Shown piece by piece: positions 1-11,001 of a stretch of DNA of 52,647 nucleotides. The position numbers were made by a program, and so were the translations under genes. Positions within the stretch are counted from its first letter, which is position 1. Every line of letters begins with the position of its first letter. The stretch comes from an uncultured Bacteroidia bacterium (GTDB lineage Bacteria > Bacteroidota > Bacteroidia > J057 > CALLMJ01), in NCBI GenBank assembly GCA_938006875.1, contig CALLMJ010000095.1, positions 1 to 52,647 of the forward strand, given 5' to 3'. The notes beneath the pieces are model-generated. The model had not been told where the DNA came from. It ran no database searches and saw nothing but the letters and a program-made list of their open reading frames with translations.

Positions 1-288
1 TATGGTTTCATTAATTAATAAATAACCAAGCCAAGTTTGAATTAGTTTTTCTTTAAAGTTACTTGCAAAAATCTGAAAAAAGCAAAAAATTTATCTTAAA
101 CAATTGAAATTTTTTCCAAATATCAATAGAGATTTTGAACAAGATTTTTGTTTTGACTACAACTAATTGTATTGAATGAAATTATGTAAGAGATATTGAC
201 ATTTTGAAACCTATTTACAAAGGTTTATAGTTTGATTTATCTAAATGTTGAAAATTTATTTTCTGATGGTTAGTCATGATTATTTTAA
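1..288. other. AT-rich spacer without recognisable gene
   Basis: All frames are broken by frequent stop codons, and no tRNA-like cloverleaf, terminator or conserved motif was seen. It may be the trailing end of a gene region lying left of the window, or plain spacer next to the tandem array. Confidence 0.6.
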
Positions 289-920
289 GGATTGGTCATT
301 GATTAGGCGAAGCCGTACCGAAATGACTATGTTTCGGGGAAATGCGGTTGTTTCGGTACGTTCGCTTCACTCACTACTCAACAACCGCAAATGGTTTGGT
401 CATTGAATTGGCGTTGTCGTACTGAAATGACCTTGTTTCGGGGAAATACGGTTGTTTCGGTACGTTCGCTTCGCTCACTACTCAACGACCGTATATGTAT
501 GGATTGGTCATTGAGTAGGTGTTGCCGTACCGAAATGACCATTTTTCGTGGGAAATGCGGTTGTTTCGGTACGTTCGCTTCGCTCACAACTCAACAACCT
601 TATATGGATTGGTCATTGAGTAGGCGTTGCCGTACTGAAATGACGACCATGTTTCGGGGAAATGCGGTTGTTTCGGTACGTTCGCTTCACTCACTACTCA
701 ACGACCTTATATGGATTGGTCATTGAGTAGGCGTTGCCTTACCGAAATGACCATTTTCGTGGGAAAGCGGTTGTTTCGGTACGTTCGCTTCACTCACTAC
801 TCAACGACCGCATATGGATTGGTCATTGAGTAGGCGTTGTCGTACTGAAATGACCTTGTTTCGGGGAAATACGGTTGTTTCGGTACGTTCGCTTCACTCA
901 CTACTCTACGACCGCATATA
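289..920. repeat. Six-unit tandem array of ~105-bp hairpin-forming repeats
   Basis: Six head-to-tail units begin at about 289, 393, 501, 606, 713 and 816, each opening with GGATTGGTCATTGA (GGTTTGGTCATTGA in unit 2) and spaced 103-108 bp. Every unit is itself an imperfect inverted repeat. The outer arms are GGTCATTGAGTAG and CTACTCAACGACC. The inner arms are CGTACCGAAA (CGTACTGAAA in units 2, 4 and 6) and TTTCGGTACG, around a short variable loop. The array is clearly GC-richer than the surrounding DNA. Unit lengths are mostly not multiples of three and no open frame is shared throughout, so it is not a protein repeat. It ends just before the nuoM terminator. Function unknown; REP- or MITE-like DNA is the nearest comparison. 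Confidence 0.93.
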
Positions 921-935
921 TACCTAACTCTAATT

Positions 936-985: not shown

Positions 986-2620
986 CTAATTAAGACCTAA
1001 ATTAGGTAAAGAAATTTTTGATTGAAATACGGACTGAACAATTACGTCAGAACTCTTACCAATCTCGGATAGAAATGGGGTAGCGTGGAAACCAATAATA
1101 AACATTAATAAAATTAAAGGTAATAATATTCCAATTTCTTGCTTATTCAAATCGGTAATATTATGGTTATCTTTATGAATAATTTCTCCAAACATAACAC
1201 GTCTAAACATCCAAAGCATATAAACAGCTGCAATAATAACTCCTGTTGTGCTAATAATTACAAGACCATTAGAAACATAAGTAGATTTAAAAGAACCTAA
1301 TAAAATCATAAATTCACCTACAAAACCATTTAATCCAGGTAAACCTATGGAAGCCATTGTAGAAATGATGAACATTAGTGTAAAGGTTGGCACAATAGCA
1401 GCAATACCTTGGTATTTTTCTATTAAACGTGTGTGAGTTCTATCGTACATCATACCCACTAAAAAGAATAATGCGGGAGTAGAAATACCGTGATTTATCA
1501 TTTGTAATACAGCACCTCTCATAGCTTCGTTATTAAAAGAAAAAATACCCATTACAATAAAGCCCATATGTGCAACTGAAGAATAAGCGACTAATTTTTT
1601 CATATCAGGTTGAACCATTGCAGCCATACCACCATAAATGATACCAATCATTCCTAACCAACACATTGTGCTTGCATAAAATATGGATGCAGCGGGAAAT
1701 AAAGGTAAACAAAATCTAATTAATCCGTAAGTTCCCATTTTTAACAATACACCTGCTAAAATTACTGAACCAGCTGTTGGGGCTTGTGTGTGAGCATCGG
1801 GTAACCATGTATGTAATGGAAAAACAGGTACTTTAATTAAAAATCCTAATGAAAAAGCTAAAAATAACCACTTTTCTACTTCAAAAGGACTATACCCATT
1901 GTTAGATAACCAAGCTTGTATTTGTGAATATCCTTTAGATATGGCTATAAAATCAGTTGTAAATGTTCCATTTTTCAATGCATTCCCTGCAACATAGCCT
2001 AAAAACAATATTGCTACTAACATAATAAAAGAACCCACTAAAGTGTATAAGAAAAATTTTACAGAAGCGTAAACCCTTGCTTGTACTTCTCTTCCCAATA
2101 CAACTTGTGTTCCTTTACTTCCCCACATACCTATTAAAAAATACATCGGTATTAAACCCAACTCAAAGAATATATAAAATACCAATAAATCTAATGATAA
2201 GAACACGCCTAATACCCCAACTTCTAATAATAATAACATGGAATAATAAGTTTTGACTTTGTCTTCAATAGCATTCATGGAATACCAAATAGATAAAACA
2301 AAAAGAAATGTAGTAAGTAGAACCAAGTAAATAGAGATACCATCTACCCCTGTAATAAAGTTTACATCATAATATACATAACCTAAATTTGCTTTTAACC
2401 AAACATATGCGGATTTAAAAACAAAATCTCCCGCTGCGTCAATACTACTATGCTTTTGATACTCGGAATATATGAAAAGTGAAAGTATGAACGTAATAGC
2501 AGAAACACCTAATGCAACATACTTAGCTTGATGCTTCCCTAATGCTAGAATTAAGGGTACACCTATTATAGGTAGAAATATTAAAACATTCAATAATATA
2601 CTTACAGTTTCTTTTTCCAT
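986..2620 (-). CDS. nuoM: NADH-quinone oxidoreductase subunit M
   Basis: Membrane-arm, antiporter-like subunit of respiratory complex I, which couples electron transfer from NADH to quinone with proton pumping. The 544-residue length fits the family, and hydrophobic segments cover nearly the whole chain. Functional residues expected in the family are visible: the membrane Glu at 153 (FFELGLIPMY), Lys263 in LIKVPVFPLHTWLPDAH and Lys294 in VLLKMGTYGL. It lies 80 bp downstream of nuoD on the same strand and is followed by a strong terminator. The usual next gene nuoN is absent, as are all genes normally found between nuoD and nuoM. Identity is very secure. Confidence 0.97.
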   Translation of the reverse strand: MEKETVSILLNVLIFLPIIGVPLILALGKHQAKYVALGVSAITFILSLFIYSEYQKHSSIDAAGDFVFKSAYVWLKANLGYVYYDVNFITGVDGISIYLVLLTTFLFVLSIWYSMNAIEDKVKTYYSMLLLLEVGVLGVFLSLDLLVFYIFFELGLIPMYFLIGMWGSKGTQVVLGREVQARVYASVKFFLYTLVGSFIMLVAILFLGYVAGNALKNGTFTTDFIAISKGYSQIQAWLSNNGYSPFEVEKWLFLAFSLGFLIKVPVFPLHTWLPDAHTQAPTAGSVILAGVLLKMGTYGLIRFCLPLFPAASIFYASTMCWLGMIGIIYGGMAAMVQPDMKKLVAYSSVAHMGFIVMGIFSFNNEAMRGAVLQMINHGISTPALFFLVGMMYDRTHTRLIEKYQGIAAIVPTFTLMFIISTMASIGLPGLNGFVGEFMILLGSFKSTYVSNGLVIISTTGVIIAAVYMLWMFRRVMFGEIIHKDNHNITDLNKQEIGILLPLILLMFIIGFHATPFLSEIGKSSDVIVQSVFQSKISLPNLGLN

Positions 2621-9542: not shown

Positions 9543-9947
9543 ATGAAAAGTTTATTTATTACCATTTGGGCAATAATATTGATAACTAATTTTGCAAATG
9601 CACAATTAAAAATTGTGTTTCAATTAACTACCAATGATACCCTTGTTCATAAAGCAGTCATTAGGCAGTTTAATAATATTTTAAAAGAAGATTCAACTGT
9701 AAAATTAGCAGTAATATGCCATGGTCCGGGTATAGAAATGTTGATGAAAGAAAAAACTATCGTAAAGATATCTATTCAGGAGCTTTCAAAGAAAGGAGTA
9801 GAATTTATTGCTTGTGAGAATACAATGACAGAAAAGAAAATTGAAAAAAGTCAGTTAATAGAGGGTTTAAAATATGTAAAAGCAGGTATTATTGAAGTTG
9901 CTAAAAGGCAAAGTGAGGGTTGGAGTTATATCAAAGCGGGTTTTTAA
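9543..9947 (+). CDS. Exported DsrE-like small protein
   Basis: A 134-residue protein with a signal peptide (cleavage near FANAQ) followed by a single DsrE/F-like alpha/beta domain. It has LKIVFQLTTND, LAVICHGPGIEML and GVEFIACENTM, the last carrying Cys91 at the position where DsrE-type proteins often have a sulfur-carrying cysteine; Cys59 is a second one. The export signal means it acts in the periplasm, not with cytoplasmic Tus or Dsr proteins. The start was chosen from the promoter and signal peptide. No linked sulfur genes, so its role is open. Confidence 0.75.
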   Translation: MKSLFITIWAIILITNFANAQLKIVFQLTTNDTLVHKAVIRQFNNILKEDSTVKLAVICHGPGIEMLMKEKTIVKISIQELSKKGVEFIACENTMTEKKIEKSQLIEGLKYVKAGIIEVAKRQSEGWSYIKAGF

Positions 9948-9999
9948 AAGTGGCTGAGCAGTTACATTCTTACCAAAGTCATAGTTTAGGTATTGTACG

Positions 10000-11001
10000 C
10001 TACTCGGAGAGCTTTATGATTTCATAATTTTGCATTTGTAATTGATTTAATATGTCTCTTACTTCGTTGATAGAATTGGAAGTACATAACTTAAGTTTAG
10101 TTTCTTTGAAAAAAGGAATAGATTTAAAATAATTTCCGTAGTGTTTTCTCATTTCCATCAAACCATATTTTTCACCTTTCCATTGTAAAGAAAACTCAAA
10201 ATGCTCTAAACAAACTTTTGCTCTTTCGGGTAGGGTAGGAGTGGGTAAAATTTCACCAGTTTTAAAATAATGTTTAATTTCATTAAATATCCAAGGATAG
10301 CCAATAGAAGCACGTCCAATCATAATACCATCAACTCCAAAACGATTTTTATATTCCAAGGCTTTTTGTGGGGAATCAATATCACCATTACCGAAAATAG
10401 GGATTTTGATTCTGGGATTTTCTTTAATTTTGGCGATTAAAGTCCAGTCTGCATTCCCTTTATACATTTGGACTCTGGTTCTTCCATGAACAGTAAGTGC
10501 TTTAATTCCAATATCTTGTAACCTTTCAGCAACTTCTTCTATATTTTTAGAGGCATCATCCCAACCTAAACGAGTTTTAACAGTTACGGGTAAGTGGGTA
10601 GCTTTAACAACGGATTCAGTCATTTTAACCATCAAAGGAATATCTTTTAAAAGTGCAGCACCAGCACCTTTACAGGCAACTGCTTTTACAGGGCAACCGT
10701 AGTTAATATCAATTAAATCAGGGTTTACAGCCGTTGCAATTTTTGCACATTCTCCCATTGTATCTACATCAGAACCAAATAATTGTATTCCAATAGGTCT
10801 TTCATATTCAAAAATATCTAATTTTTTTTTGCTTTGTGCGGCATCTCTAATTAAACCTTCTGATGATATAAACTCGGTATACATTAAATCAGCACCATTT
10901 TGTTTACAAACTTTACGAAAAGGAGGATCACTTATATCTTCCATGGGCGCAAGTAACAAAGGAAAATCCTCAAAAATTATATTCTCTCCAATTTTTATCA
11001 T
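10000..11001 (-). CDS. tRNA-dihydrouridine synthase
   Basis: FMN-dependent reductase that converts uridine to dihydrouridine in tRNA; DusB-type by motif. From the start at 11001 it has 333 residues. LLLAPMEDISDPPFR is the FMN-side loop, the catalytic Cys103 lies in NYGCPVKAV, and the phosphate-binding end is IFGNGDI followed by DGIMIGRAS. The start at 11001 lies one base past the PAP2 stop codon. An in-frame ATG at 11016 would overlap that gene by 14 bp and is less likely. Co-transcribed with the PAP2 gene. Confidence 0.93.
   Translation of the reverse strand: MIKIGENIIFEDFPLLLAPMEDISDPPFRKVCKQNGADLMYTEFISSEGLIRDAAQSKKKLDIFEYERPIGIQLFGSDVDTMGECAKIATAVNPDLIDINYGCPVKAVACKGAGAALLKDIPLMVKMTESVVKATHLPVTVKTRLGWDDASKNIEEVAERLQDIGIKALTVHGRTRVQMYKGNADWTLIAKIKENPRIKIPIFGNGDIDSPQKALEYKNRFGVDGIMIGRASIGYPWIFNEIKHYFKTGEILPTPTLPERAKVCLEHFEFSLQWKGEKYGLMEMRKHYGNYFKSIPFFKETKLKLCTSNSINEVRDILNQLQMQNYEIIKLSE

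Follow-up and report, generated by a model that had tools for sequence, protein, structure and literature searches.

A tandem hairpin array in an uncultured Bacteroidia genome is probably the amplified core of a MITE with IS5-type ends

What is an array of six long hairpins, repeated head to tail and richer in G+C than its surroundings, doing in the genome of an uncultured Bacteroidia bacterium? The array lies in a window of 52,647 bp (the whole stretch of DNA that was analysed), which is contig C95 of a 2.87-Mb draft genome in 185 contigs that is 97% complete (G000); the genome of a sister species (G001) was used for comparison. Running TRF on the window identified a tandem array at 289–919 with a period of 104, 6.0 copies, 88% matches and a score of 950, in which profile searching combined with folding delimited the following full hairpin units.

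293–387, plus strand: unit 1, two facing palindromes
397–491, plus strand: unit 2
505–599, plus strand: unit 3
610–706, plus strand: unit 4
717–810, plus strand: unit 5
820–914, plus strand: unit 6

The arms quoted in the initial annotation of this DNA were found in the sequence, GGTCATTGAGTAG pairing with CTACTCAACGACC, CGTACCGAAA with TTTCGGTACG and GAAATGACC with GGTTGTTTC within a unit. Single units fold on the plus strand at −36 to −42 kcal/mol (z −4.0 to −5.9), with 0 or 1 of 200 shuffles folding as well as the real unit, and the array folded as a whole reaches a z of −17. Together with the TRF result, these values support the earlier description of six head-to-tail units, each foldable as a long hairpin, to which we add that each unit is also a facing pair of 35–41-bp palindromes that can fold alone. 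The G+C content of the array (46.9%, compared with 29.8% for the window and 22% for the left flank) is elevated, as had been claimed, and the six units are mutually non-identical, with a mean identity of 89.6%. An open frame of 111 codons on the plus strand (391–726) spans three units; since the length of a unit varies and is not divisible by three, this frame is most likely fortuitous, arising from the higher G+C content of the repeats.

A unit confined to this place and varying freely in its stems, the outcome that the initial annotation had named as contrary to its reading, was not what its proposed search of the genome and its relatives returned. A two-unit query matched 95 pieces of G000, and a profile of the six window units located around 40 array loci there, as well as related repeats at six loci in G001; the 40 stretches fetched contain 87 full-length units. 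Across 22 genomes of the order, the element was detected only in its own genus, save for one marginal 36-bp match, and searches of plasmids, phages and viral contigs returned no matches. The sequence immediately left of the array (window 128–288) recurs at about 25 other loci, stopping where the array starts, and a separate module of about 95 bp lies 3′ of the arrays at about 30 loci. The consensus order is an AT-rich left module (about 165 bp), a variable core and an AT-rich right module (about 95 bp), which by eye reads AGAGATTTTGAACAAAATTTTTGTTT...GGATT, then the array, then AATATATACCTAATGTTTTAAATTAACTTATTAATCGCTAACAATTAACTGGTAAACCATTTTTAATGAATTGTTCATAAACTCT. Per copy, the core consists of zero to eight copies of a 29-bp part-unit plus one to six full units, and copies with two ends measure 234–787 bp, compared with 804 bp for the window copy, whose parts are as follows.

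125–127, no strand: AAT, proposed left copy of a 3-bp target duplication, from the sequence and the AAT/ATT flanks at other copies
128–931, plus strand: whole MITE-like element, 804 bp, array included; the left end matches other copies and the left end of an insertion sequence (IS), and the right end keeps the terminal ACTCT
128–288, plus strand: AT-rich left module, including the left terminal repeat AGAGATTTTGAACAAGATTTTTGTTT; found at about 25 further loci at 84–93% identity
915–931, plus strand: internally deleted right module, in which GCATATATACCTA runs directly into the terminal ACTCT, as judged by eye against undeleted right modules (about 95 bp)
932–934, no strand: AAT, right-hand counterpart in the proposed 3-bp target duplication, from the sequence

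The initial annotation had placed the feature at 289–920; the array is there, but it forms part of a dispersed element that has AT-rich ends of its own, so that the feature as a whole extends from 128 to 931. In the right module, an internal deletion joins CATATATACCTA to ACTCT and leaves the end of the element at 931. Just outside it, at 936–968, a terminator-like perfect hairpin (AAAAAAGCCTTTGA/TTTCAAAGGCTTTTTT) lies at the 3′ end of a nuoM-like gene (986–2620, minus strand). The element encodes no transposase, and in being short, dispersed and multi-copy it has the general character of a MITE.

The two ends of the element are inverted repeats (AGAG.TT.TGAACAA), as is usual for MITEs, in an imperfect form: AGAGATTTTGAACAAGAT and AGAGTTTATGAACAATTC are identical at 13 of 18 positions. 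The window copy is flanked by AAT on both sides, and the 3-bp flanks are identical, always AAT or ATT, in 10 of 16 other two-ended copies, an agreement that is not significant (permutation P 0.07) because the target triplets are nearly invariant. Some mismatching flank pairs may be due to chimeric contigs, which we considered since C9, C38 and C52 have one left flank in common. An initial assignment of TA duplications was replaced by AWT, since the bases outside TA agree on both sides, as an AWT site predicts; an IS630-type transposase (DDE_3), considered while the ends appeared TA-flanked, gave no matches in our search. Among candidate empty sites in G001, the locus downstream of nuoM has no array and its intergenic DNA is unalignable, and at the L129 locus synteny does not extend beyond one gene. 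No clean empty site was found: the metK locus is no more than suggestive of one, aligning weakly across the joint because its intergenic DNA is too diverged.

In G001, following up a weak match to the left end uncovered an insertion sequence split over contigs C103 and C14, the halves of which overlap by 137 bp and join to a length of 970 bp. Pieces of its transposase match HTH_Tnp_4 (PF13613) and DDE_Tnp_4 (PF13359), and of the NCBIfam models ‘IS5 family transposase’ fits best, with a score below its cut-off because only a fragment was scanned. The right 18 bp of the element agree with the right end of this IS at 18/18 positions in a decayed G000 copy and at 16/18 in G001, against a background whose best match is 14/18 in 51 kb. 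At the left, 30 bp agree at 23/30 and 20/30 positions, where AT-rich background reaches 22/30; this match is weaker than that on the right, yet it is placed exactly at the end. Ends shared with an autonomous IS, a further trait of MITEs, are thus present, the left one less clearly. Duplications of 3 bp with the sequence ANT are typical of one IS5 subgroup (ISL2). In G000, a draft assembly from which collapsed copies could be missing, this IS was seen only as decayed copies and its transposase only as remnants, none of them intact.

Two further observations concern this family. In G001 contig C103 (L164, reverse strand, about 97–200), the IS5-type transposase shifts frame at a run of nine A residues (GTGAAAAAAAAAGCAC) where the frames overlap, a candidate site of programmed frameshifting or slippage. 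In G000 contig C42 (L138), sequence like the upstream part of an IS5-type element (AACAAGATTTTTGTATATT...TTGATTATTCATTCAAAAAA) adjoins the right end of a MITE copy and is perhaps an IS remnant.

Dispersed copies, common inverted ends that match an IS, and AAT/ATT flanks bear out the suggestion of a mobile DNA relic, one of four made in the initial annotation, next to structural RNA, REP-like binding sites and a recombination hot spot. We consider it probable that the array is the core of a MITE with IS5-type ends and a BOX-like build, in which a REP-like dimer has been amplified internally. The end similarities suggest that the element was most likely moved in trans by an IS5-type transposase (HTH_Tnp_4 plus DDE_Tnp_4), which would have inserted it at intergenic AWT sites. 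Its core would have grown by tandem duplication of a facing pair of REP-like palindromes on two scales, as 29-bp part-units and as whole units of about 104 bp with a local linker.

The palindromes themselves bear on where this core came from. Each unit comprises GGTCATT-GAGTAGGCGTAGCCGTACCGA-AATGACC facing, in reverse, GGTCGTT-GAGTAGTGAGTGAAGCGAACGTACCGA-AACAACC, and the half-units have a constant core with covarying arms (GGTCATT/AATGACC, GGGCGTT/AACGCCC, GGTGGCT/AGCCACC and GGTCGTT/AACGACC). In each of G000 and G001, complementarity of the half-palindrome arms exceeded that in 2000 of 2000 shuffles, by a statistic that ignores relatedness. Palindromes of 20–40 bp with conserved pairing, often arranged as facing dimers, are a trait of REPs, and the half-units display it. 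Outside the MITE, G001 has REP-like palindromes that stand free, densely clustered and in both orientations, in contigs C67 (L220/L221/L227, about 9,850–10,500), C33 (L219) and C34 (L223), with loops that vary between GGCGTAGCC, CGAGCAAAGCGAGC and a long GGTTTCGGCAAGCTCACCAACC form.

This architecture raises the question of whether the palindromes are REP/BIME sequences spread by a RAYT (Y1 tyrosine transposase), the surrounding modules being incidental. Their size, their facing dimers and the free-standing palindromes of G001 would all accord with such an origin. However, a search of G000 for Y1_Tnp/RAYT (PF01797) returned no matches in this 97% complete draft, while the same search was positive in 5 of 14 controls; no GTAG or CGTC tag stands unpaired at one terminus, GTAG lying inside the palindrome after GGTCATTGA; and most G000 arrays sit between the same left and right modules. 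A RAYT-driven origin is therefore very unlikely in our view, and of the REP-like character proposed in the initial annotation, the half-unit architecture stands, whereas the Y1/RAYT enzyme suggested with it was not found in G000. For the MITE that we favour, because G001 has free-standing palindromes without end modules, the core probably derives from a REP-like family that was already present.

Another possibility is that the arrays are under selection for a host function, either at the RNA level, as hairpins that terminate or stabilise transcripts, or at the DNA level, as sites bound by a protein such as gyrase or IHF, an idea to which the strong predicted folding and the covarying half-palindrome arms lend some weight. 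Against it, covariation in the long hairpin is weak (93.0% of cells paired vs 92.3% in shuffles), an Rfam scan of the window gave no matches, and the element is near-absent from the order outside the genus. The genomic placement points the same way. Insertions are essentially all intergenic, and the 25 copies flanked on each side by a predicted gene lie between tandem (15), convergent (6) or divergent (4) genes, close to the window's own arrangements (32, 9 and 8, respectively); relative to tandem genes, their orientation is 8 to 7, i.e. without preference. This placement fits neutral insertion combined with selection against gene disruption, and gene context gives no support to a terminator or 3′-end role. 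With no Rfam match, no preferred gene strand or arrangement and weak long-hairpin covariation, the structural RNA proposed in the initial annotation likewise finds little support. We judge a selected host function quite improbable and infer that the element has no dedicated one, although single loci could have co-opted a role later.

Within the variable core, the part-unit is the first 29 bases of the unit and precedes full units in many copies, so that, with F for a full unit and p for a part-unit, cores read F, ppF, ppppppppF or pFpFppFpFppF at a constant 29-bp step; the window copy reads FFFFFF. Because linkers are mostly locus-specific and units of one locus resemble each other more closely (91.7% identity) than units of different loci do (88.2%), the sequences point to local tandem amplification, which would most likely have followed insertion, through slippage during replication or unequal recombination. 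Could the arrays instead be partly an artefact of assembly? Many lie at contig ends, and some contigs have a common left flank and different right flanks (C9/C38/C52; C4/C33), suggesting chimeric joins in repeats. Nevertheless, multi-unit arrays also occur deep inside contigs (C110, C91, C153, C72 and C1), the window units differ from each other, and the window copy has AAT on both sides, making this explanation very unlikely. We regard as unlikely a further scenario, in which a distinct, structure-recognised family of palindromes, spread by an enzyme not yet known, would have entered an IS5-type MITE and be actively amplified there in steps of 29 and 104 bp, such that array length would vary rapidly between cells and tune neighbouring genes or chromosome structure.

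A pair of copies, one from each genome, also points to recent movement. The copy in G001 contig C22 is 98–99% identical to that in G000 contig C69, with unrelated flanks, and the gene beside the C22 copy is 76% identical to its G000 match. Separately, G001 contig C68 (L153) and G000 contig C151 (L162) share 1,595 bp at 99.4% identity, flanks included, where genes compared between the genomes are about 76–85% identical; this pair could reflect a recent transfer or a mis-binned contig, and we place no reliance on it.

Among known systems, the BOX elements of Streptococcus pneumoniae (boxA-boxB(n)-boxC) have terminal repeats that resemble a resident IS, together with MITE features (PMC3049150). 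Like the present element, they combine fixed left and right modules and IS-like ends with structured core units in tandem, the number of which varies (PMC3049150). Here, in contrast, the core unit is a REP-like palindrome pair amplified at 29 and about 104 bp, the core has a higher G+C content than the DNA around it, and the element resides in an uncultured Bacteroidia lineage; we draw the comparison as an analogy of architecture alone, claiming neither sequence relation nor membership. MITECca01, reported from Cardinium as a derivative of an IS982-family element, is similarly short, non-coding, high in copy number and mostly intergenic with IS-like ends, and differs in that the part of its description available to us mentions no tandem core (PMC9769881), whereas the present element has IS5-type ends and an amplified core. 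REP/BIME sequences linked to RAYT are short palindromes that frequently form facing dimers, folding as one larger hairpin, with occasional tandem clusters (PMC3733652), all features with parallels here; they differ in that we found no RAYT in G000 and no terminal GTAG, and in that the palindromes here travel within an IS-ended element. The element has most of the defining properties of MITEs and lacks two of the defining features of RAYT-linked REPs that were tested. We found no described element of similar kind in Bacteroidetes in the literature, a weak negative given that most subscription journals lay outside its scope.

The element shows that a BOX-like build, in which fixed ends enclose a hairpin core that can be amplified, also occurs far from Streptococcus, in an uncultured Bacteroidia lineage, and that REP-like palindromes are carried there in a MITE of the DDE-transposon type instead of with a RAYT. 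Its repeats also help explain the fragmentation of the assembly, as many of the 185 contigs end in them.
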